Assembly: GCA_031284365.1 (NCBI GenBank)
Contig: JAISZX010000066.1
Location: 1-32,219 of the forward strand
Direction of reading: 5' to 3'
From: Holosporaceae bacterium
Lineage (GTDB): Bacteria; Pseudomonadota; Alphaproteobacteria; UBA3830
DNA: 32,219 bases
The notes below the pieces were generated by a model. It had not been told where the DNA came from. It saw only the letters and a program-made list of their open reading frames with translations, and searched no databases. Of the stretch, positions 3,704-32,219 are shown in pieces. A program made the position numbers and the translations under genes. Positions within the stretch are counted from its first letter, which is position 1. Each line of letters starts with the position of its first letter.

Positions 3704-4525
3704 TTACAGAGATTTTATTTCAGAAATCGCTAACCCTGTAATTTCTGAAATTTCACGCAACTCCATATTTCTTGCCAGTAATTTTTGAGCGATTTTTTTC
3801 TTTTCATTTGTTTCACCTTCTTCTCTAGCGATGGTGAGTTCGCTATTATGGTCACTGATGGTTCTCTGGCGAAGATCGGCTATGGCACGGACTTCATCAT
3901 CGGCACTGATGTATTTTAGCGTCTCCATTGCTTCCTTTATTTCTTCTATTTCCAAGAACATCTCGTCAATAAAAATCGGATTTTTCAAAAAAGAAAGCCA
4001 GGCGGTGAGGAGATCGCGCCGATCGGCTTTTTTCGGATCGAAGCGCGGTAACTCCACAAAAAATATCCTCGCCTTATCGGTCATAATCTGATATGGATCG
4101 GGATCGCTCGGCTGAAACGTCATGTAGACTTCACTTATGGCGTTTTGGCGATCTGTCACGTTCTCCCCAAGTATCCAGACTCCGATGACGTTCGGTCCGT
4201 TGTAGGATTTTCCCTTCTTTACGGCTCTGGGCATCATGTTGGCCAGATAATGGAAGGCCCGCTGAGGGATCTCGCCGGTGTTGCGTACCTGAATTTCAAT
4301 ATCTAGTTTTGTGCCATTGTCGGTGGTGGCCTTCACGTCTAGACGGCTGGCCTTGTCCCTTTCTAGAATCCTCTCGATTTCGGTATTTTCTAACTGTAGG
4401 TCATTGATATATGGATTGTTTTTGAACAGAGAATTTAAAAGCGAGATTAACAGCGGTTTGTTCTTCTCCACACCGAAGATATTTTTAAATATGTAATCTA
4501 ATTTCGGGTCTAGTAGGTCTATCAT
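3704..4525 (-). CDS. rpn: Rpn-family recombination-promoting nuclease (PD-(D/E)XK)
   Basis: This 273-residue protein matches the Rpn / PDDEXK_2 family, DNA nucleases often labelled putative transposases and common in Rickettsiales and Holosporales genomes. It opens with the family-typical MIDLLDPKLDYIFKNIFG. The catalytic core is visible as RLDVK (D63) and LDIEIQV (D75, E77, Q79), the E-x-Q form of the motif, followed by the RAFHYLANM segment. The C-terminal tail, with IAREEGE and then REISEITGLAISEI, is the usual family ending. The length looks complete. It lies alone between traD and the convergent traA, with its own likely promoter about 40 bases upstream, so it is probably an accessory gene rather than part of transfer. 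Whether it acts on this element's own recombination is unknown. Confidence 0.9.
   Translation of the reverse strand: MIDLLDPKLDYIFKNIFGVEKNKPLLISLLNSLFKNNPYINDLQLENTEIERILERDKASRLDVKATTDNGTKLDIEIQVRNTGEIPQRAFHYLANMMPRAVKKGKSYNGPNVIGVWILGENVTDRQNAISEVYMTFQPSDPDPYQIMTDKARIFFVELPRFDPKKADRRDLLTAWLSFLKNPIFIDEMFLEIEEIKEAMETLKYISADDEVRAIADLRQRTISDHNSELTIAREEGETNEKKKIAQKLLARNMELREISEITGLAISEIKSL
3717..3751. terminator. 11-bp inverted repeat where traA and rpn converge
   Basis: ATTTCAGAAAT (3717-3727) and ATTTCTGAAAT (3741-3751) are perfect inverted repeats around a 13-base loop, inside the last codons of rpn and 26 bases past the traA stop. It could end transcripts from either side. No clear U-run follows on the plus strand, and the arms partly reflect a repeated Glu-Ile-Ser in the Rpn tail, so the role is uncertain. 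Confidence 0.3.
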
Positions 4526-4601: not shown

Positions 4602-7310
4602 TCAGCGCAGCAAAACATCTTCCACATTATGTGGTTTAAAAAGGCGGTTACCTGAGCTAATATGCGTTACCGTTTCTCCAAATGACTGGACTAATTGTTG
4701 GGCATTGTTTGTTTCGGAAAGCAGTAGCTTATTGCAGTCGGATAATTCACGAGAATTTTCAAAGAAGTGATTGATTATTATGGTATTTGAAGCGTGCTGT
4801 ATCAATTTCTTCCCCATAACGATTTTAATGGTTTCAGGAGTAATTATTTTCTCCATAAATGGCGTTAGCGCCTGCAGATGAACATCGCCTCCGCAGGATA
4901 ACCAAAGTACGGATTTATTCGATCCATAATATTCAGAAAAAGAGAATTCTTTTCTTTTCGAAATCAGCGCCTTAAAGCAGTGGAGCTCTTTTGCTATTCG
5001 GCTGCGGATTTTGATAAAAGTATCCTCATTATCTTCGATATTAACGAATGGCATCAATATAGATTTGATCTGTTTGAATGGAGCAAAACACAGTATTTGA
5101 AAGAATTCCTTTGTATTAATATCAAGACCAATGAGATATGCTATCAAATCCTCAATTTCTGCACATTCTGTTTTGATATTTTTAGCGAATCCCGAGATAT
5201 TTTGGCTATGGCGCAAATCTCCGAGGAAATCCCAAGATAAGCCGTTTTTTCTCAGAGGATTTATCAAAATATCGTCTTTTTCTGCCAAATGTTCGAAAAG
5301 AAAGTCTCCCTCTTCGAAGACTATGCCCTTTCGTTTACTGATCCTCATATCCGTCAATAATTGCCCCACGGTTTGGTTTATGGAGTCATCATTTCCCCAT
5401 ATATAGAAGGGCCTTTCGAATACAACTTCTGAGAAGTTCATGCCGGATAATTTTAGATAATCACCAAAAAATTTTGAGTATTTCTCACTAAATGTACTCA
5501 AGTCCAAAAGACGAACGGAGGTCGCCATATCTTGTTGGCATGGTTTTTGGTGGCCGTGCTCATGTAGTTTAAATTTCGTTTTAGCGACTACAGCTATTCC
5601 CGAGAATTTGATGAATGCCTCACCTGGGGTAAGATTCATGATTTCAGCATAGGGCACTGTTTGCTTTTTCTCGGTTTTTTGAGCGATATTAACTCCATCT
5701 CTCATGGTGTTTGCGCCGTAGGAAATGGCTTCCGACGCGGACACTTCTTCCTTCTCTCCGAGGAAGCTGCTCATATATTTAGCGGTATCCGGTTCGGGTA
5801 TGCCCATGACGATTTTAGTTCCACAAAGCCCTGTGATTGTTCTTGCAACTTCGTGGCCATAAATCCTATTCAATTGGGATATCATTTGGGTTCCAATAAC
5901 AAAGCAACCTCCGTATTTTCTGATTTCCGCCAATGACGTTTCTATTCTCGGCAGTCTATTCAGATTATGAAGCTCGTCGATGAAGAACCAGCAACGTGAC
6001 AAACGTGACGTTTGATCCGATATTTGCTTGGTACCAAATTTCAGTATTTTTGATCCAATCGCCTCCGTTGTCGGCGAATCTTGGCAGCAATTTTCCTGTC
6101 TCATCAGTGATTCAGTGGCGATCGATAACCAAGCAGTGATCAAAGGAGTCAATGATGCTCTTTCCACAGGTCTACATGATAGAAACAAAAGGCCATTTTT
6201 ATCCGAAGCAATCCATTTTCGAATGCTGAAATTTCCGTCAGAGGACTCCTTCAGAATATCAAAAACCGAAATGGCGTTAATGAGCATGGCGCGAACGGAA
6301 ATGGCCATTTTATCGGCTCTTTCGTCCATCAAACCATGGCCATATGTTCCCTCCAGATAATTTTGCATCTCCTTGAGGGATACTTTGAGCAATAGATTCA
6401 GAAACTCGTCAGTAGATTTTCCTTCCTTGATAGCTTTTTTAGCGGTTTCTTGGAAGACAATTTTAGCTGCTTCTTCCCAGAATTTATCTTGGCTATTTTC
6501 GCCGTTTCCGATAAGACAGGCGGCGACGTTTTTCAGTAAAATTTCGTCCTGACATTCGTTCAGAAAACTCCAGGAAATGGAGCGACCATCCAGTGGATTT
6601 AATATGATATCTCGACTTTCATCATAATATTTGTTCAAGTACGTGCCTACGGTATCAACAATGACGATCTTCTCGTTTTTGGTCGCAATCTGATCCAGAA
6701 GCTCAATCATGACGTTTGTTTTGCCGGAGCCTGTTGTGCCGGTAAGAATCGTGTGTCGGCATTCGGTTCCCTTGGGATAGGGGATATCCGCCAATATAAT
6801 GTCGCTTTTGTGTCTGATATATTTCCTGATTTTTGTTCCTTTCACATACTCATGTCCGGAAATCAGTTCTTTGCCGTCGCTGAGAGATTTGCCAAAATAT
6901 TTGTTGAAAAGCACCATGAGAAGCATGGCGGCAATGCTGATGCATGTGCTGAGCTTGAGAGCAAAGCTCAATGAGTCTTCAAAGCTAGCTTTGAAAAACA
7001 AACAAGGTTCGCCCGTGGCAATGACATAATCCGATACCTCTTTCCATTTACCGCTTCCAAATTTGAAATATGAGTGACTGAACAGGGTGGATGGAAGCGT
7101 CGTCATGTTGCTTCTATAGGTTGCTTTCAGGCAAACGAAATAGTTCCATATGCTGCTCGAGTTCCATTTGTTTATGAGATAGAAAAGGAAGCTCCCAAGA
7201 AAGCTCAGTCGCCCCACAAGCCAGATGACGTTCCAGTTTTGCATCATCATGCGCACACGATGCGCCAGCACCTGTCCGCCAATGGTGCTATGGTCTGAAT
7301 ATCTACTCAC
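4602..7310 (-). CDS. traD: F-type coupling protein TraD with a degenerate second ATPase-like domain
   Basis: TraD is the inner-membrane ATPase that hands the relaxase-DNA complex to the secretion channel. The N-terminus has the STIGGQVLAHRVRMM segment typical of F-type TraD and two membrane spans (about residues 28-47 and 125-145). Walker A is GTTGSGKT near 190-197 and Walker B is WFFIDELHN near 439-447, with the family segment GTQMISQLNRIYG after it. At 902 residues it is well over F TraD (about 720). Residues from about 630 repeat the order of the first domain without a P-loop: DILINPLRKNGLSWDFL mirrors DIILNPLDGRSISWSFL, and VLWLSC...LTPF mirrors LLFLSC...LTPL. The start is GTG, set by an AGGAG seven bases upstream. 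It is last of the transfer genes in transcription order. Confidence 0.93.
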   Translation of the reverse strand: MSRYSDHSTIGGQVLAHRVRMMMQNWNVIWLVGRLSFLGSFLFYLINKWNSSSIWNYFVCLKATYRSNMTTLPSTLFSHSYFKFGSGKWKEVSDYVIATGEPCLFFKASFEDSLSFALKLSTCISIAAMLLMVLFNKYFGKSLSDGKELISGHEYVKGTKIRKYIRHKSDIILADIPYPKGTECRHTILTGTTGSGKTNVMIELLDQIATKNEKIVIVDTVGTYLNKYYDESRDIILNPLDGRSISWSFLNECQDEILLKNVAACLIGNGENSQDKFWEEAAKIVFQETAKKAIKEGKSTDEFLNLLLKVSLKEMQNYLEGTYGHGLMDERADKMAISVRAMLINAISVFDILKESSDGNFSIRKWIASDKNGLLFLSCRPVERASLTPLITAWLSIATESLMRQENCCQDSPTTEAIGSKILKFGTKQISDQTSRLSRCWFFIDELHNLNRLPRIETSLAEIRKYGGCFVIGTQMISQLNRIYGHEVARTITGLCGTKIVMGIPEPDTAKYMSSFLGEKEEVSASEAISYGANTMRDGVNIAQKTEKKQTVPYAEIMNLTPGEAFIKFSGIAVVAKTKFKLHEHGHQKPCQQDMATSVRLLDLSTFSEKYSKFFGDYLKLSGMNFSEVVFERPFYIWGNDDSINQTVGQLLTDMRISKRKGIVFEEGDFLFEHLAEKDDILINPLRKNGLSWDFLGDLRHSQNISGFAKNIKTECAEIEDLIAYLIGLDINTKEFFQILCFAPFKQIKSILMPFVNIEDNEDTFIKIRSRIAKELHCFKALISKRKEFSFSEYYGSNKSVLWLSCGGDVHLQALTPFMEKIITPETIKIVMGKKLIQHASNTIIINHFFENSRELSDCNKLLLSETNNAQQLVQSFGETVTHISSGNRLFKPHNVEDVLLR

Positions 7311-8123: not shown

Positions 8124-9368
8124 TTATTTTCCTTTCTCTAAAAGTTCTTGGATTTTATTTAGCGAGTCGCCAAGATCTTTTTGTTTGACGGTATCTATGG
8201 ACTCGCATCCTTTAGCCACACTTTTTTCTCGACGCAATTGGTCAACGACGGTTTTCAGCCGCTGCGCAAACGTTATTAATTGATGCAACTCTAGAGAATC
8301 AAAAAAGCTAATACGCAGTGTGCAGGAGGGCAATTTATCCTCCGGATCGATGGCTGCCATCACATTTGATCGCTCCTGACCGGTGCAGGAACAACCGGCG
8401 GCAAAGGAATATTCCTTTAGGCGTTCCATAATGTCCGTCAGCAGAACTCCGGCAATTGAAACAGACACAATGTGGGACGGACTGGACGAATTTATGTGAA
8501 TATTTCCGATTTTCGTCAGTTCTGTTGTTAGTACGTTGAAATTTCGCGCTATTTTTGCGGTATCGAATTTGAAATTTTGCACGGCGGCGGCAAAAGCGGC
8601 GATCAATTCCGTCGCTTTTGAGCCTGGGAAAAATTCGTCGCCGGAGCCGAATAGAATCGGCTGCAATCTTGATGGATCGCGTATGTACAGCGCTCCAATG
8701 CCTTTGGGGGAGCCGATTTTGTGGCCGGCCATGGTCAGTAGATCAATATGCAAAGCCTCAATGTCGATGTCGTACTTGCAAAAAGCCTGGGCAGCGTCCG
8801 TGTGAAACAGAATTTTGTGCTGTCGAGCGATTTCTCCTATGGCTTTCACGTTCTGCAAAGTTCCAATTTCGCTGTTGAGCATCTGGATGGAGATTAATTT
8901 CGTGTTTTTTCGAATACTTTTGCGCAACTGTTCCAAATCCACGTTCCCATGGCGATCTACATTCAGGTAGGTGACCTTGTATCTCCGCGTCTCCAGATGC
9001 TTGAAGACATTCAGCACGCTTTTGTGCTCGATCTTCGACGTAATCAAATGGCATCCAGGATTTCCCTGGGCTACTCCGAGAATAGCGATGTTATTGGCTG
9101 TCGTCGCGCTGCTGCAAAAATGTATCTGATCGGGCTTTGCATTTATCTTTCCCGCAACAATCTTCGCAGCCCTTTCTTCGATTTCCTTCAGGTGTTTCGC
9201 ATGAACATTCAGACCAGAAGAATTGCCGTCCAGCTGTGCAACCTTTACAAATTCCTCCAACGCTCCTCTGCTCGCTGCATAAGAAGCGGCGTAGTCCAGA
9301 TAAATTACTTCGTTTCCACCTGCTAACGCAGGAATCATCAAGAAAGATAATACAAGAAGTTTCTTCAT
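8124..9368 (-). CDS. cysteine desulfurase family protein (NifS/IscS type) with a predicted signal peptide
   Basis: This is a fold-type I PLP enzyme of the cysteine desulfurase family, which removes sulfur from cysteine as an enzyme-bound persulfide. Visible motifs are IYLDYAAS (about 22), EHKSVLN (H115), HTDAAQA (D191, Q194), the PLP-lysine segment AGHKIGSPKGIGALY (K217), and GCSCTG with the likely persulfide cysteine at C328. At 414 residues it is about IscS length plus an extra N-terminus: MKKLLVLSFLMIPALAGG reads as a Sec signal peptide, unusual for a normally cytosolic family. The start is favoured because its ATG overlaps an upstream stop (TAATG, 9366-9370); the internal ATG at residue 11 has no ribosome site. 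No iscU, suf or dnd partner is in view. It lies between traG and traD. Confidence 0.88.
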   Translation of the reverse strand: MKKLLVLSFLMIPALAGGNEVIYLDYAASYAASRGALEEFVKVAQLDGNSSGLNVHAKHLKEIEERAAKIVAGKINAKPDQIHFCSSATTANNIAILGVAQGNPGCHLITSKIEHKSVLNVFKHLETRRYKVTYLNVDRHGNVDLEQLRKSIRKNTKLISIQMLNSEIGTLQNVKAIGEIARQHKILFHTDAAQAFCKYDIDIEALHIDLLTMAGHKIGSPKGIGALYIRDPSRLQPILFGSGDEFFPGSKATELIAAFAAAVQNFKFDTAKIARNFNVLTTELTKIGNIHINSSSPSHIVSVSIAGVLLTDIMERLKEYSFAAGCSCTGQERSNVMAAIDPEDKLPSCTLRISFFDSLELHQLITFAQRLKTVVDQLRREKSVAKGCESIDTVKQKDLGDSLNKIQELLEKGK

Positions 9369-9472
9369 TATGATTTCTCTTTGTTAATTTGTGCGTTCAT
9401 TGATTGGTCTTCTAATTCTTCTTCATTTTCAACCTCAGCTATATTGGTCAGTTCTCGCAATTTATTTTCTAG
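9368..9472 (-). pseudogene. displaced 3' end of the DUF1016 gene in another frame
   Basis: In the frame shifted by one base from the end of the DUF1016 gene, a run reads LENKLRELTNIAEVENEEEL and continues to a TAA that overlaps the ATG of the desulfurase gene. DUF1016 proteins usually continue past their LPD-type ending into a short helix of this character, so this looks like the original C-terminus cut off by a small deletion near 9472-9478. No slippery heptamer is seen at the junction. Confidence 0.5.
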
Positions 9473-10434
9473 TCCGGCAAATGCAAACAATAATCTGCAA
9501 CCATACTTGGTGAAAGTGAGCGGCTAAGTGCGTATTCCACAACGGCATCATCCTTAGAAGCGCATAGAATTAAGCCAACACTGGAATTTTCGTTTGCCTT
9601 TTTCACATCTCTGTCTAATGCTTCCAAATAAAATTCCAACTGTCCAAGATGCTCAGGCTTGAATCTTCCTATTTTCAGCTCTATAGCAATTAAACACATC
9701 AGAGTACGATTGTAAAAAAGCAAGTCTATTAGAAAATCTGTATTTCCAACCTGAACTCTGTATTCTTCTCCTATAAATGCAACGTCTTTTCCGAATTCTA
9801 AAATGAAATTTTTGATATTTGCGACAATAGATTTACGAAGATTTTTTTCGCTATGCGTTTCCGGAATATCGAGAAATTCCAAGACGTAGCTGTCGCGCAA
9901 AGCAGAAATCTCCGGCGTTTTTGAAATTGCTCGCCGGTTTTTTTTGTTAGAAATCATTGTGCGTTCGAATATCATGGCATCAAGTTGTCGTTCCAGTTCA
10001 CGAAAAGAATATTTGTTTTGGACTGCAGCTCTAATATAAAATTCTTTTGTTTCGTCAGTTTTAGCAGAAGCCATAATCAGCAAGTTATTAGACCAGCTAA
10101 TTTCTCGCAACAGTGTCGCGAGTTTTGGGTTCTCGACGTAGGTTTCATAAAATTGCGCCATGCGCCAAAGATTTGATGGAGAAAACCCTTTTATTCCTAC
10201 ATACTTTGTTTGTATGGTTTGAGATAGTCTCTCAACGACAGCTTTGCCCCAGTTGTCGGTTTTCGTTTTCTCGCTTATATAGCGGCCAATAGACCAATAC
10301 ATATCGATTAATTCTCGATTTACTGCTTGAAATGCTCTGGAACGAGCGTTTTCTATGATAACAATAACGTCGTTGAATGGCACGTTTTCGTCTGATTCTT
10401 TTGTTATTATATCTTTCACAAATACCTCATCCAT
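9469..10434 (-). CDS. DUF1016 / YhcG-family PD-(D/E)XK nuclease, probably C-terminally truncated
   Basis: This 321-residue protein has both parts of the YhcG/DUF1016 family. The N-terminal helical domain runs through MYWSIGRYISEK and the GFSPSNLWRMAQFYETY and LLREISWSNNLLIM segments (about residues 46-121). The C-terminal nuclease domain has EEYRVQVGNTDFLIDLLFYNR (D237) and CLIAIELKIG (E252, K254). Family members are common on mobile elements and near restriction-like systems; the substrate of this one is unknown. It ends abruptly at LHLPD, and a likely remainder of the C-terminus lies in another frame just downstream. The nuclease core is intact, so activity may survive. Its start overlaps the preceding small gene by eight bases, which suggests coupled translation. 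Confidence 0.9.
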   Translation of the reverse strand: MDEVFVKDIITKESDENVPFNDVIVIIENARSRAFQAVNRELIDMYWSIGRYISEKTKTDNWGKAVVERLSQTIQTKYVGIKGFSPSNLWRMAQFYETYVENPKLATLLREISWSNNLLIMASAKTDETKEFYIRAAVQNKYSFRELERQLDAMIFERTMISNKKNRRAISKTPEISALRDSYVLEFLDIPETHSEKNLRKSIVANIKNFILEFGKDVAFIGEEYRVQVGNTDFLIDLLFYNRTLMCLIAIELKIGRFKPEHLGQLEFYLEALDRDVKKANENSSVGLILCASKDDAVVEYALSRSLSPSMVADYCLHLPD

Positions 10435-11237: not shown

Positions 11238-14057
11238 TTAGTCATCTCCCCAAGAAAATGTATTTATCGTCTTATCCACAACAGCATGCGCCGCTCCTTT
11301 CCCAGCTCTTTCCTTTTCTTTTTGTCTAATTTTGCGTGCTTGATTTTTTATTTCCATTTTTTCTTGGGAGATATTGGATTTAGTGTTTTGCAACTTGTCG
11401 CTGACGACGACTTTGATTGCGCGTTGATCGCCTTGTAGCTTTTCTTTTTTAGCCTTTCTATCGTCATCCATTTTATCGATGTTGGTTCGCGTCTGTTGTT
11501 CTTGTTGTTTATATTCTGGCCTGAAGTCACTTTCCGCCTGCTTTCGATTATAATCGCCCCAGCCTGGCTGCTTCATTTGCGGCATCGTCGGCCTCATTCT
11601 TACGGTTTCTCTGCTTTTCGCCTCCATGAGCCAGCCTTGCGCTTGCTCTTTATCAGATGCACTGCTGGAATCAATCATTTGGGAGGCTTCAGACTTGGTG
11701 TATCCTCTTTCTGTGGCTATTTCCAACGCATGATCCCGTAGATTACTCCTCTCACTGATGGTCAGGCTGCTCGCTCTGTTGTAGCTTTCCTGGTAACTTT
11801 TCGCCATGTGTTCGTTGTAGGCCTTATCCTGACTGTACTGACTCATTTTCGAAAGCGTATCCGTATGATCTCTCGCCAACTGCGCTACCTCGTCGTTTCT
11901 GCTGGATGCCGCTATGTCCTGCATATAGGAATCAAATCTCTTCTGGGTTTCAGCAATATCGTGAGATGTGGACGCCTGGCTGGAATCGCCGTAATTCGTG
12001 GTGTTGCTGGACTCTACTCCTCCATTCATGCCGATTCCGACTTGTCCAGCGACTGAACCGCTTACAGATACCTTGCTCTTCTTGCTGCCTGCGCCTTTAG
12101 AAAGGTCGATATGACCACCTGCATTTGCTCCAAAAGCTAAGTTTCCTCCGGCTTTAGTCCCATCAGCGTAGGCATGCCCGTTGTAATACTGATCCAATAT
12201 CTTTGCATCATTGTGTATCTGCTGAGCTTTATCCGCCCCCATGTTGTATTTGCTAGAGATATCCTGGGCCGACATGCTGCTGAAACTATGGGCCAACCGA
12301 GATGTTTCACTGTGGGAAGCGCTCTTGCTCTGAGAGTATTTTACCGTGGCGTCATAGGCTCTCTGCATCGAATCGCCGTAGCCCTTGCGAAATTCCTCCG
12401 TATCTGTACTGGTGGCTGAAAAGTCTCTGACTCCGCTGCTTACGGCATGACTTATGGTGGAGAATCCACTGGCGTCGTTGATAATTTGTACTCCTCCGGT
12501 ATCAAGTCTATGTCCTCCGGCCGACAGGGAACTGGAGAAACTCCTCTGTAATTGGGAAAGATTGTCCAACTGCTGGTTTCTCATGCTGACATTGCCGAAC
12601 GAGAAATTACCGGAAGATACTTCCGCGGCAGCAGAGCTAGCAGCTTGCATCGAGGTGCCTGTCATCTGACCTGCAAGATGTACAAACGTCCCCACTCCCT
12701 TCACTATGGCTATGCAGATAAATGGTATACTCATGGATAAATATCCAGCCAGGAGTTTTATTTCTGCATTAGCCTCCGACACTCCTATGTAATTGGCTAT
12801 GGTTAATCCTCCGGCAGTACCAAGTTCGGATAAAGTGGACGCCCTTGCTGCTATGTTCATAATATAGTTAAGAATGGCGTACATTGGAGGCCAGGCCTGT
12901 AGCCAAATTAAAATCGCAACCCAATTCATGAAAAATTTATAGCCGCTTGGAACCATACAAAGCGGTATTATGAAGATAAAACAGGCATAGGCCAGCGCTT
13001 CTATAACCGCTTTCATTATTGGCAGCAACTTTGTAGCCAGTCGTCCGACCGTATCAAATGTGCTACTCTGTTGTTGCAGAGCCCTTGTCTCCGCATAGGT
13101 AATGGCGTTACCGGCCAATTTGCAGTTTTCGGACGCTGCGTCTCCTATGGCATTGATCATCAAGGCCTGCTTCAGGCTGTTTTCTGCATTTTCTGCTATA
13201 TCTCCAAGATATGAGGTGATATTTTGCAGATTTGCTTTGATCTCGGCCTTTAGGGCAGTCTCCAAACTCGAGTTCATCATCAATTTAGGAGAGTTACTTC
13301 CGGAATTGGCGATGAATCTTCCGGTGAAAAACTTCCTTCCCAGAAGAGAAAACGATCTGTCCAGTTCCGCAGCCCAGGCCTGATTGAATTTCTCCGCGGC
13401 TTCTTCACATGTGACGTAGACAGCCATGCCTTTACCCGTTATTGGTATCCAGAATATTCCTCTGTTTTTGGATGGATTGCTGGTTATCAGTCCCCATAAA
13501 TCGTTTGTATTTCTTAGGTCATCGAAACTGTACTTTTGGTTCAACATGATGTCGTATTTCACGCATTGACCGACGAAATTGCGCATGTTTTCCTTGAAAT
13601 TTTGATTTGTGATCCTAAAGGTTTTGGCTTTTTCCAGAATATCAGAGCCAAACATCATGCCGTTTTTCTGATATTTCATATCATCCGGAGTGGAGAAGCT
13701 TTGCTCTACGATTTCCGTAAGCACTTTCCCCAGCTTGCTGGTTTGGGACGCAAAAAGAGCTAATCCATAGGGCACATGATCGATTTTATAGGCATATCTT
13801 GTGATGGCGTCCTTTATCCATACGGTGCTGGTGGGAAGAAACAGCATATTGGTCATGAGCAGCACCGGCATACCCCAGGTTTTCAGAATTTGCATGGGAT
13901 TGCCATACAAAATCATGTAATAAACCATAAACGCACCAACAAGACCTCCGATCCTCAGCATGGCCGTCAGCGTCCCGCTGCCTCCGTTCAAACACATGGC
14001 AACGGCTTTTATTACCTCATATACAATCTCGCCTCCTCCTATGGTGTATAGGTCCAC
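11238..14057 (-). CDS. traG: TraG, mating-pair stabilisation and pilus assembly protein
   Basis: TraG is a large inner-membrane protein of F-type systems; its N-terminal half works in pilus assembly and its periplasmic C-terminal half in mating-pair stabilisation and exclusion. At 939 residues it matches F TraG in length. The first 210 residues follow F TraG closely (YTIGGGE, then DHVPYGLAL, then YQKNGMMFGSDIL and YDIMLNQKYSFDDL). Several membrane spans lie near residues 30-80 and 355-470. The rest is the serine-, alanine- and glutamine-rich region typical of the family. It starts with GTG just after the DUF4143 ATPase gene, with a loose AGGA ribosome site. A second diverged copy of its 5' end, with ATG, lies 1.5 kb upstream beside vapC, so the present start may be a rebuilt one. 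Confidence 0.94.
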   Translation of the reverse strand: MDLYTIGGGEIVYEVIKAVAMCLNGGSGTLTAMLRIGGLVGAFMVYYMILYGNPMQILKTWGMPVLLMTNMLFLPTSTVWIKDAITRYAYKIDHVPYGLALFASQTSKLGKVLTEIVEQSFSTPDDMKYQKNGMMFGSDILEKAKTFRITNQNFKENMRNFVGQCVKYDIMLNQKYSFDDLRNTNDLWGLITSNPSKNRGIFWIPITGKGMAVYVTCEEAAEKFNQAWAAELDRSFSLLGRKFFTGRFIANSGSNSPKLMMNSSLETALKAEIKANLQNITSYLGDIAENAENSLKQALMINAIGDAASENCKLAGNAITYAETRALQQQSSTFDTVGRLATKLLPIMKAVIEALAYACFIFIIPLCMVPSGYKFFMNWVAILIWLQAWPPMYAILNYIMNIAARASTLSELGTAGGLTIANYIGVSEANAEIKLLAGYLSMSIPFICIAIVKGVGTFVHLAGQMTGTSMQAASSAAAEVSSGNFSFGNVSMRNQQLDNLSQLQRSFSSSLSAGGHRLDTGGVQIINDASGFSTISHAVSSGVRDFSATSTDTEEFRKGYGDSMQRAYDATVKYSQSKSASHSETSRLAHSFSSMSAQDISSKYNMGADKAQQIHNDAKILDQYYNGHAYADGTKAGGNLAFGANAGGHIDLSKGAGSKKSKVSVSGSVAGQVGIGMNGGVESSNTTNYGDSSQASTSHDIAETQKRFDSYMQDIAASSRNDEVAQLARDHTDTLSKMSQYSQDKAYNEHMAKSYQESYNRASSLTISERSNLRDHALEIATERGYTKSEASQMIDSSSASDKEQAQGWLMEAKSRETVRMRPTMPQMKQPGWGDYNRKQAESDFRPEYKQQEQQTRTNIDKMDDDRKAKKEKLQGDQRAIKVVVSDKLQNTKSNISQEKMEIKNQARKIRQKEKERAGKGAAHAVVDKTINTFSWGDD

Positions 14058-15347: not shown

Positions 15348-15572
15348 CTACCTAACAGCCTTAGGAATCGATTCAGGCCGGGCGTTGCCCTCCCATTTTT
15401 TAACGAATCCTATTTCTAAAAAAGTAAGGAGTACTTTCGCGGCAAAGGCTCCTGTAAAACCTCCGATCCTCAGCATCGCCGTCAGCGTCCCGCTGCCTCC
15501 GTTCAAACACAATGCAACTGCCTTCAGGACCTCATAGACAATCTCCCCTCCTCCTATGGTGTATAGGTCCAT
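15348..15572 (-). pseudogene. duplicate 5' fragment of traG
   Basis: The first 43 or so residues, beginning MDLYTIGGGEIVYEVLKAVA and ending in GAF, are nearly the same as the TraG start. The two DNA stretches (15455-15572 and 13940-14057) agree strongly, with most differences at silent positions. After that the frame runs into an unrelated tail (AAKVLLTFLEIGFVKKWEGN, then a stop). It starts with ATG three bases after the vapC stop. It is probably the original traG start, cut off when the ATPase segment arrived, or a piece of a second related element joined by recombination. A 75-residue protein with one hydrophobic segment could still be made. Confidence 0.8.
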
Positions 15573-15575
15573 CAA

Positions 15576-15956
15576 TTACTCCAAACTTACCTCTAGACCT
15601 TCTTTGTGAGCGACATCAATTAGCTGTTTATCAAACGTAGCGATCGGGCATTTGTATTTTTTAGCCAACAGTAGATACGATGCGTCGTAGGCCGTTAACC
15701 CCGTTTCCACAGCGTATAGAAACAGCTTCATCGGATCGGATCGATGTCTTTCAATACCGAGGGCATCAACAGCGGCGAAACAATTCTTGACGGCACCAGT
15801 AGATAAAGCCTGGCGTTTGGCCGTTTTCCACATAACATTCGCAAACTCGTAATCAAATAAATCTGTTGTGATAAATCTTTTGTCATCATCGAAAAAGTTC
15901 ATTGATAACTCTTGTCTCACAAACTTTACGACAAACGACGTGTCCAGTACTACCAT
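15576..15956 (-). CDS. vapC: PIN-domain toxin (VapC family)
   Basis: This 126-residue protein has the PIN ribonuclease layout: the start VVLDTSFVVKF with acidic D5, then DYEFANVMWKTA with E37, then LTAYDASYLLLAKKYKCPIATFDKQL with D91 and D109. These four acidic residues form the metal site by which VapC toxins cut RNA, often tRNA. It overlaps its antitoxin gene by seven bases, the usual tight arrangement. The pair lies between traH and the traG fragment. It would act as an addiction module that keeps the element in its host, which is inference from the family. Confidence 0.9.
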   Translation of the reverse strand: MVVLDTSFVVKFVRQELSMNFFDDDKRFITTDLFDYEFANVMWKTAKRQALSTGAVKNCFAAVDALGIERHRSDPMKLFLYAVETGLTAYDASYLLLAKKYKCPIATFDKQLIDVAHKEGLEVSLE

Positions 15957-30193: not shown

Positions 30194-30769
30194 TCATGCC
30201 TTTTGTAAATTCAACGATTGCAAATAGTCTTCAAAAGTATCAGGAACGCCGCCGGGAAATAGCTTCTTGGCCACAAGGTCTGCGCTCCTGCCGGTACAGC
30301 GAGCGATGGAGTATTTCACGGCGGCTCCGATGACTGATGGAGTGGAAGTGGATGGGATAGTAAGATTGAAACTCTCATTCATGCCGTCATAGCCTTCTAA
30401 TTTGTCATGTTTCCATGGAGAAATTACTATAATTCCATCATCCATTTTTACAGAGCAATGTTGCATATTCTTAAACATAGCATGTTTATTTTTATAGTTA
30501 TATTTTTGTAATACGTATTCTACAAAATCCTTATAACGTCCAGTAATTGCCGAGATATCAAACAAATTGTAATCCGGATCGTTTTTTCCCACGACTCTGC
30601 TTTTTTCAAGTACTGTTGTTAGTGCACTTCCTATGTTGTAGCAACCATCTTCCGATGATAAATATATATCAACTCCCTTTGGATCTTGAGCACATACACT
30701 ACCACTTTTTGATTCTGTATAGAGTTCAAAAAAATCTGTGTTACAATAAACGGAAGCGTGCTTTTCCAT
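30194..30769 (-). CDS. CdiI-family immunity protein
   Basis: This 191-residue protein resembles immunity proteins annotated with contact-dependent growth inhibition systems. The marks are HAMFKNMQHCSVKMDDGIIV, then ISPWKHDKLEGYDGM and LTIPSTSTPSVIGAAVKYSI followed by ARCTG, in the order I know from that family. It would bind and block the toxin domain encoded just upstream. Its start is one base after the toxin gene's stop, so the two are made together, as is normal for toxin-immunity pairs. No signal peptide is present, fitting a cytoplasmic protector. Recognition of the family is from memory. Confidence 0.75.
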   Translation of the reverse strand: MEKHASVYCNTDFFELYTESKSGSVCAQDPKGVDIYLSSEDGCYNIGSALTTVLEKSRVVGKNDPDYNLFDISAITGRYKDFVEYVLQKYNYKNKHAMFKNMQHCSVKMDDGIIVISPWKHDKLEGYDGMNESFNLTIPSTSTPSVIGAAVKYSIARCTGRSADLVAKKLFPGGVPDTFEDYLQSLNLQKA

Positions 30770-30770
30770 T

Positions 30771-32219
30771 TTATTTTACCTTTATAACTGTAACTTTTAC
30801 CCCATTCCTTTCTCCATAACTTACACAATGTTTTATTTGTTGCATATGTATAGCAGACGTGTTTCCAGGAATTGCCAAATGTAGTTCTTTGGCCGCTATC
30901 ATGTCCGAGGTAAGCGGAAATTTTTCAAGAGTATGTCCACTAAAATCAACCATCTTATTAATATAGCCATTAACAGTGTAACGGACCATTTCTGGGTTAG
31001 CAATTCTCGAAAGTGTGTTAGTGTCAAGTGTTTTGGCGCTGATCGCAAGACCATTTTCTCGATCAAAGAAATCGAAAGTTTTGAAGTTTTTAGGCAGTCT
31101 CCAACTGGCTGGCAATATGGATGCAGTGTAATTCTCAAAAGCGTACCCGCGTTCGAACCAATTTCCGAACCAACTCATGCCGATTTTGCTTCCGTCGACT
31201 ACGGTAGCTGTAGATTTCGTGGCGGCTCCGAGCATTGCGCCGCGAAATTTGGTTACTCCGGCCATGGCCGCGCCTGCTTTTCCAAGCGCTCCGGGAGCAA
31301 AAATTTGGGTGGAGATATTTCCGACGTCGGCCAAATTTTGAGCGACCACTTCCGGCATTCCTCCGGAAATCATCCCACGCTCGATTCTTTCAAACGCAGA
31401 ATCGATTCCATCCGAGAGCTTATGCATCCAGCCGGAAAGAACATTTCCCGTTGCGTCGTCCAGCGCTCCGAAAACGGTACCAATCCCCTGTCCGATTTTC
31501 GCCAATCCCCTGTTGATGAAGTAACTCGCCGCCATACTATCGATAATTTCCGGATCCGATCTCATGCTTTCCGGCATTTTGGACATCTGATAGTCCATAT
31601 ATTGCTCGTGAGTCATGGCGTCAGCCGCGCGACAATTGTCTGCCACAACTCCAAGCACAACTCCAACACCTTCCCTAACTCTCGTGACCGCCAGAGGTTC
31701 CGGCGCTTGACTCAGTGCAAACAGCAGCTGCTGATACATGCCGATTCTGTCGTTCAGGACGCTCAGCTGAGTTTCTTTGGAAGCGGCAGTGATGCTCTGC
31801 TCAAATTTACCGGAACCGGCTGAACTGCTTCTTGCAACCTCCTCCTTTTTCGCCTGAAGCGCACCTATGGCTCCGCTGATTTCTCGGGCCACGGACGCTC
31901 TTGTCTTCGCAGACACAGGCTTCCCGGAGGTTAACTTCGCGATTTCAGCTTCGCCAACCGTCGATTTAAGCTTTTGATTAAGCTGATCGTTAACGGCGAC
32001 TGTTTCTTCCGCAACACTCTTTACTTTTGTTTCTTCCTGCTGAGTTGTACGCTGAACGGCTTCGTCCGTCCGCTCAATTTCTTCTTTAGGAGCGTTGGCA
32101 GCCATTTGTTCGAGTCGGATTCTCGCCCTGACCTGCTGTAATTCGTCCACCTGGGCCATCATGGCGGTGAATTCTGCGATGGAGGGGTTTATGACGGAGC
32201 GTTTGTGGGACTCAGCCTC
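30771..32219 (-). CDS. toxin-bearing protein with a C-terminal CdiA-CT nuclease domain (5' end outside window)
   Basis: The frame stays open to the window edge (19 more codons before the ATG at 32162), so this is the C-terminal part of a larger protein. From the last 130 residues (about 31165 downward) it matches the CdiA C-terminal tRNase/endonuclease-like toxin domain: RGYAFENYTASILP, FKTFDFFDRENGLAISAKTLD, then AAKELHLAIPGNTS and GERNGVKVTVIKVK. The E in FENY, the acids in FDFFD and the K in SAK look like a PD-(D/E)XK-type site. The preceding 330 residues are alanine- and glutamine-rich, partly coiled coil, with a glycine/alanine-rich stretch before the toxin. No VENN motif, haemagglutinin repeat or CdiB partner is seen. 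The immunity gene follows after one base. Confidence 0.8.
   Translation of the reverse strand, partial: EAESHKRSVINPSIAEFTAMMAQVDELQQVRARIRLEQMAANAPKEEIERTDEAVQRTTQQEETKVKSVAEETVAVNDQLNQKLKSTVGEAEIAKLTSGKPVSAKTRASVAREISGAIGALQAKKEEVARSSSAGSGKFEQSITAASKETQLSVLNDRIGMYQQLLFALSQAPEPLAVTRVREGVGVVLGVVADNCRAADAMTHEQYMDYQMSKMPESMRSDPEIIDSMAASYFINRGLAKIGQGIGTVFGALDDATGNVLSGWMHKLSDGIDSAFERIERGMISGGMPEVVAQNLADVGNISTQIFAPGALGKAGAAMAGVTKFRGAMLGAATKSTATVVDGSKIGMSWFGNWFERGYAFENYTASILPASWRLPKNFKTFDFFDRENGLAISAKTLDTNTLSRIANPEMVRYTVNGYINKMVDFSGHTLEKFPLTSDMIAAKELHLAIPGNTSAIHMQQIKHCVSYGERNGVKVTVIKVK

Follow-up and report, generated by a model that had tools for sequence, protein, structure and literature searches.

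The choice and loading of cargo by coupling proteins is still understood only in part (PMC12624023). VirD4 proteins have two substrate-recruiting parts in all, the all-alpha domain (AAD) and the C-terminal tail (PMC12624023; PMC7434980), and proteins of this type are usually 500 to 750 residues long (PMC7434980). A stretch of 32,219 nucleotides from a Holosporaceae bacterium (contig JAISZX010000066.1), here called the window, encodes a TraD-like protein of 902 residues, which is beyond the norm for VirD4 and F-type TraD proteins. The questions here are what lies behind the motor domain of this protein, where it came from, and what it might do. An earlier note on this DNA had described it as a decayed second copy of the protein's own ATPase domain.

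The conjugation cluster and its surroundings

The window is contig C113 of the host assembly (1.44 Mb in 133 contigs). It carries, on the minus strand, an F-type cluster with the genes for TraD, TraG_N, TraH, TraF, TraN, TrbC, TraU, TraW, TraC, TraV, TraB, TraK, and TraE. A relaxase-helicase of 1159 aa (MobA_MobL plus AAA_30) is encoded on the opposite strand and converges on traD. With its F-type T4SS genes and an adjoining TraA_Ti-like MobA/L relaxase-helicase, the element resembles the Rickettsiales amplified genetic element (RAGE). The published RAGE TraD is described with a single copy each of Walker A and Walker B (PMC10732058), and neither an integrase, which in RAGE lies at the left end, nor SpoT-type cargo was found among the ORFs scanned in the window.

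Cargo genes are located between the tra genes. They encode a PDDEXK_2 transposase-family nuclease (3704-4525), a YhcG/DUF1016 nuclease (9469-10434), and a PIN-domain protein (15576-15956); related elements carry different cargo near the same places. A DUF4143/AAA_14 gene is flanked by a 128-nt direct repeat (88 % identity; 13929-14056 and 15444-15571). One copy marks the 5′ end of traG and the other lies upstream, and it looks as if cargo had been inserted here with duplication of the traG start. A cysteine desulfurase-like protein (Aminotran_5; 8124-9368, minus strand), with DndA/IscS as best NCBIfam matches below the cut-offs, has an apparent Sec signal peptide at its start and seems to have kept the active-site Lys and Cys loops. 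Such a gene was present near traD in at least three elements (also at L013:6006-7265 and L017:3959-5275), and an exported cysteine desulfurase is an odd component of a conjugative element. At the end of the conjugation cluster (30194-32162, minus strand), a 463-aa ORF with a C-terminal CDI toxin EC869-like domain (PF21111, 4.6e-41) is followed by a CdiI immunity gene (PF07262, 1.9e-30).

An F-type TraD-like motor followed by a dead module

The traD frame was confirmed to be open and real (Table 1). It scores 419.9 bits with TIGR02759, of the 521.35 bits of the curated cut-off, and because of this shortfall "F-type TraD-like" is the name to be used, rather than curated TraD_Ftype. Residues 1-583 make up an ordinary F-type TraD with both Walker motifs intact, as they are in seven of seven N-domains compared. 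As in F-type TraD (TIGR02759) and the VirD4-type TrwB of R388, there are two N-terminal membrane helices, a nucleotide-binding domain (NBD) with Walker A and B, a TrwB AAD-type domain and TraG-D_C, and the gene lies in an F-type tra cluster.

Table 1 Features of the traD-like ORF of the window
Feature	Residues	Position	Strand	Basis or remark
traD-like ORF, whole		4602..7310	minus	902 aa, GTG start; NCBIfam TIGR02759 TraD_Ftype match 1.8e-125
Transmembrane helix 1	28-46	7173..7229	minus	Hydropathy
Transmembrane helix 2	116-134	6909..6965	minus	Hydropathy
First, active TrwB/TraD domain	171-577	5580..6800	minus	PF10412 7.4e-128; PF12696 TraG-D_C 1e-24
Intact Walker A, GTTGSGKT	191-198	6717..6740	minus	Sequence
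Intact Walker B, WFFIDEL	441-447	5970..5990	minus	Sequence
Fusion linker	584-599	5514..5561	minus	Stop codon and new gene start here in G031; membrane hairpin in G044/G046
Second, dead TrwB-like module	600-902	4605..5513	minus	PF10412, hhalign, AF2, Foldseek
Lost P-loop position, GNDDSINQTV	639-648	5367..5396	minus	Profile alignment

A 23-nt repeat (91 %) is common to positions 1808-1830 and 6056-6078, within in-frame inserts of the relaxase and TraD. The TraD insert comprises residues 414-438 approximately, between a helix of the first domain and Walker B, and a similar insert occurs in the relative G037. These inserts look like small palindromic-type elements that were inserted within genes.

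The C-terminal 288 aa by themselves matched PF10412 (TrwB_AAD_bind, 2.8e-12) and, used as a query, retrieved the first domain of the same TraD (3.5e-5). In a comparison with hhalign, a profile of seven C-modules was aligned to TraD positions 168-392 of a profile of eight first domains with a probability of 98.6 %, an E of 1.3e-15 and a score of 121.4; the top score of 100 column-shuffled profiles was 26.4. The idea of a second ATPase-like copy behind the first was thereby upheld. The earlier note had let this copy run from about residue 630 to the end. The motif pairs on which that was based (DILINPL/DIILNPL, SWDFL/SWSFL, and WLSC/FLSC) did align, but homology starts at about residue 600, immediately past the first domain, and spans the first NBD lobe and the AAD; significance ends at about residue 805-820, near the strand that precedes the Walker B lobe. 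This lobe has about 95 residues past the "WLSC" strand vs about 175 in the first domain, not counting the insert. With its Walker B lobe shortened and diverged beyond reliable alignment, the second module is taken to be about two thirds of a TrwB domain and not a full copy.

At the P-loop position, the second module has WGNDDSINQTV vs GTTGSGKTNV in the first domain, so that the proposed change of the P-loop into GNDDSINQTV was borne out by the profile alignment. Walker A and Walker B are missing from all eight C-modules; a GKT or GKS string is present in two of them, far from the P-loop position. The picture of a tandem in which an active ATPase-like module is followed by a dead one therefore holds, as the Walker motifs are kept in the first and lost in the second. 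Residual ATP binding by the second module was judged unlikely, since both motifs are lost.

A search of PDB sequences with the C-module returned only TrwB, with a marginal E of 0.012. An AF2 model of the C-module made from seven sequences was of middling confidence (pTM 0.71, pLDDT 69). Its best 33 PDB matches in Foldseek were all TrwB chains (E 7e-7 to 2e-4, TM about 0.42-0.50), followed by HerA and VirB4. A TrwB-like fold was thus recovered in the C-terminal part, with a clear first lobe and AAD, and with the significant self-alignment neither of the outcomes that the earlier note had named as refuting its idea was seen. In a full-length model, most helices and strands of one module have their counterpart in the other between the P-loop strand and the "LSC" strand; the pTM of this model (0.40) is too poor for the arrangement of the modules, and it was not used for domain placement.

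Conservation and distribution of the second module

A traD of this kind was found in 8 of 50 genomes of the window's order, spread over several genera, and wherever the gene was readable past the first domain, the module was there. Six fused ORFs of 899-946 aa are without a stop; only a broken copy was found in G018. Within the C-modules, the first NBD lobe and the AAD are best kept, and identity between the window and most relatives is 20-27 %. For the pair G046/G044, the only one close enough to measure, dN/dS was 0.108 in the C-module, between the values of the N-domain (0.038) and the membrane linker (0.399); these values are rough, since dS is near saturation. An assembly artefact was ruled out, as MAGs of separate projects and isolates share the fused frame. 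Their origin from termite gut and rumen was read from isolate names and, for one water-buffalo rumen, from a title.

It could be argued that the module is left over from a duplication, without function and tolerated by the motor, as its catalytic motifs are lost, its evolution is fast, and both the second copy in the window's genome (contig C123) and the G018 copy are broken. These broken copies sit in broken or fragmentary elements, however, and a leftover would hardly be expected to show a dN/dS of 0.11 and an open frame in six fused ORFs across several genera, which makes this explanation very improbable. The word "decayed" in the earlier note cannot be maintained for a module that six genomes or more have conserved and that is under purifying selection in the one measurable pair. 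Judged from the sequences, evolution is keeping the second module rather than letting it decay. Its anatomy and its maintenance are regarded as close to certain.

Outside the order, a search of 385 genomes of the class gave about 35 TraD matches, in 23 genomes, and none of them had the module; these TraD frames are up to 755 aa long, and some are cut by contig ends. In a sample of the phylum, distant TraD frames reached 864 aa, and the C-module profile found no tandem module. Searches for the C-module in plasmids (tblastn) and in viral contigs, and a single-protein scan of genome contigs, gave no match.

Exchange of modules between TraD proteins

The C-modules are of two deep types, A (window, G031, G023, G044, and G046) and B (G029, G037, and the second copy in the window's genome). 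The motor of G029 groups with that of G031, and its module groups with that of G037. In AU tests, a grouping of the G029 N-domain with G037 was rejected (p 0.0003), as was a grouping of its C-module with G031 and the window (p 0.0004); these p-values are optimistic, as the groups were named after the trees had been seen. Because both alternative groupings of G029 are rejected, the trees indicate that the module has moved between TraDs at least once. A relaxase tree, used to see if the neighbouring relaxase had moved along with the C-module, gave p 0.16-0.17, and the G029 relaxase is on a separate contig.

Remains of further copies of the element were seen at two loci. A broken type-B dead module occupies positions 1-756 of L019 (G000:C123) in the window's own genome, and at L018 (G018:C64) a broken traD lies alongside a long open relaxase frame.

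Origin of the tandem protein

In G031, traD ends where the first domain ends (KLHED followed by a stop codon), and a new gene of 463 aa begins three bases on. In its product, two membrane helices precede a dead TrwB-like domain that is 51 % identical to the module of the window. In G044 and G046, the modules are fused and a membrane hairpin is retained between them (residues 576-621 approximately), and this membrane part is lost in the window, G023, G037, and G029. As both a split form and forms with a membrane hairpin exist, it is probable that a second traD-like gene was joined to traD. If the tree is right, it suggests that the membrane part was lost more than once, and the split, hairpin and fused forms are suggestive of the stages by which a tandem of motor and pseudo-motor can arise. 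A sequence comparison of the membrane part of the G031 split gene with that of TraD itself gave a score of 16.9, which shuffles exceeded (up to 23) and which is not significant, so the descent of this part rests on topology and on homology that starts just past the second helix.

In the tree, all dead modules form one clade (support 100/100) outside every active TraD sampled. The earlier note had called the module a copy of the protein's own domain; that it is a homologue of the TrwB/TraD type stands, and the position of the clade leaves duplication of this traD inseparable from fusion of another traD-like gene. The module might also have been captured as a traD-like gene from another conjugative element and then fused, which would be compatible with a docking function. 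Such a source would explain why the dead modules fall outside both the TraDs of the order and all others sampled, but a long, fast-evolving branch would do so whatever its source. The split form lies directly 3′ of traD in G031, and the class and phylum samples yielded no stand-alone source outside the order; capture is seen as a tentative possibility.

Proposed function of the second module

The proposal that fits best is that of a lineage-specific coupling protein, made of a motor and a dead docking module. Initially, a second traD-like gene would have adjoined traD; it would then have been fused to it through loss of the stop codon and of the membrane helices. The first domain is the working motor of this type IV coupling protein, which belongs to an F-type conjugative element. 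The second module would be a non-catalytic docking part at the cytoplasmic side of the motor ring, with as many as six additional AAD-like surfaces for recruitment of the relaxosome or other cargo, and it would replace the C-terminal tail of other TraD proteins. As a whole, this explanation is slightly favored, and for the docking function itself the chances are put as evenly divided.

Docking is preferred because the module sits at the site of the tail, has kept its AAD part, has lost its catalytic motifs, evolves fast under constraint, and is exchangeable. Fast, exchangeable evolution is expected of a part that determines partner specificity, and a fast pace may also reflect weak constraint. 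Among the roles proposed in the earlier note (hexamer cap, regulator, or carrier of substrate specificity), the last seems to agree best with these data.

Ranked next is a scaffold or regulatory ring, the main rival, in which the dead module would stack as a second ring under the motor hexamer or cap it, stabilizing the assembly or gating ATP turnover with no part in substrate choice. ATPases built as double rings, one of them degenerate, are known, and the RecA-like first lobe has been retained along with the AAD. A T4SS precedent is VirB4, the protomers of which are placed in an inner and an outer ring (PMC12857230). A part that packs on a conserved ring would, however, not usually diverge as rapidly as this module does or be exchanged between TraDs, and the shortened Walker B lobe also argues against this role. 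This role is considered rather unlikely, and docking stays the preferred reading.

Comparison with known coupling proteins

The difference with F-type TraD and TrwB of R388 lies in the length of the protein and in the replacement of the tail by a dead TrwB-type module. The tails of TraD_F, Agrobacterium tumefaciens VirD4, TcpA, and DotL are in the same position and likely have the same partner-recruiting job, but they are either acidic and variable tails or extensions that bind adaptors, and not modules with a TrwB fold (PMC7434980). FtsK-type coupling proteins such as TcpA are, like this TraD, longer than 750 residues; TcpA types lack an AAD and contain several membrane segments, whereas the TraD of the window has an AAD, two membrane helices, and a second module without catalytic motifs.

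A review of coupling-protein architecture distinguishes five subfamilies and describes none of them as having a dead TrwB module in tandem (PMC7434980). Searched by term, a 2025 nomenclature review did not mention one either (PMC12857230). A T4CP built in this way was not found in the open-access literature, and an earlier report may exist.

In conclusion, a pseudo-ATPase twin that was once a separate membrane protein might now, fused to the motor, serve as an exchangeable specificity ring beneath it, so that partners would change by swapping the dead module while the motor is kept; in this full form, the idea is a doubtful one. A family of coupling proteins with a domain that is freed from catalysis, kept, and swapped offers a natural means of telling recruitment apart from pumping.
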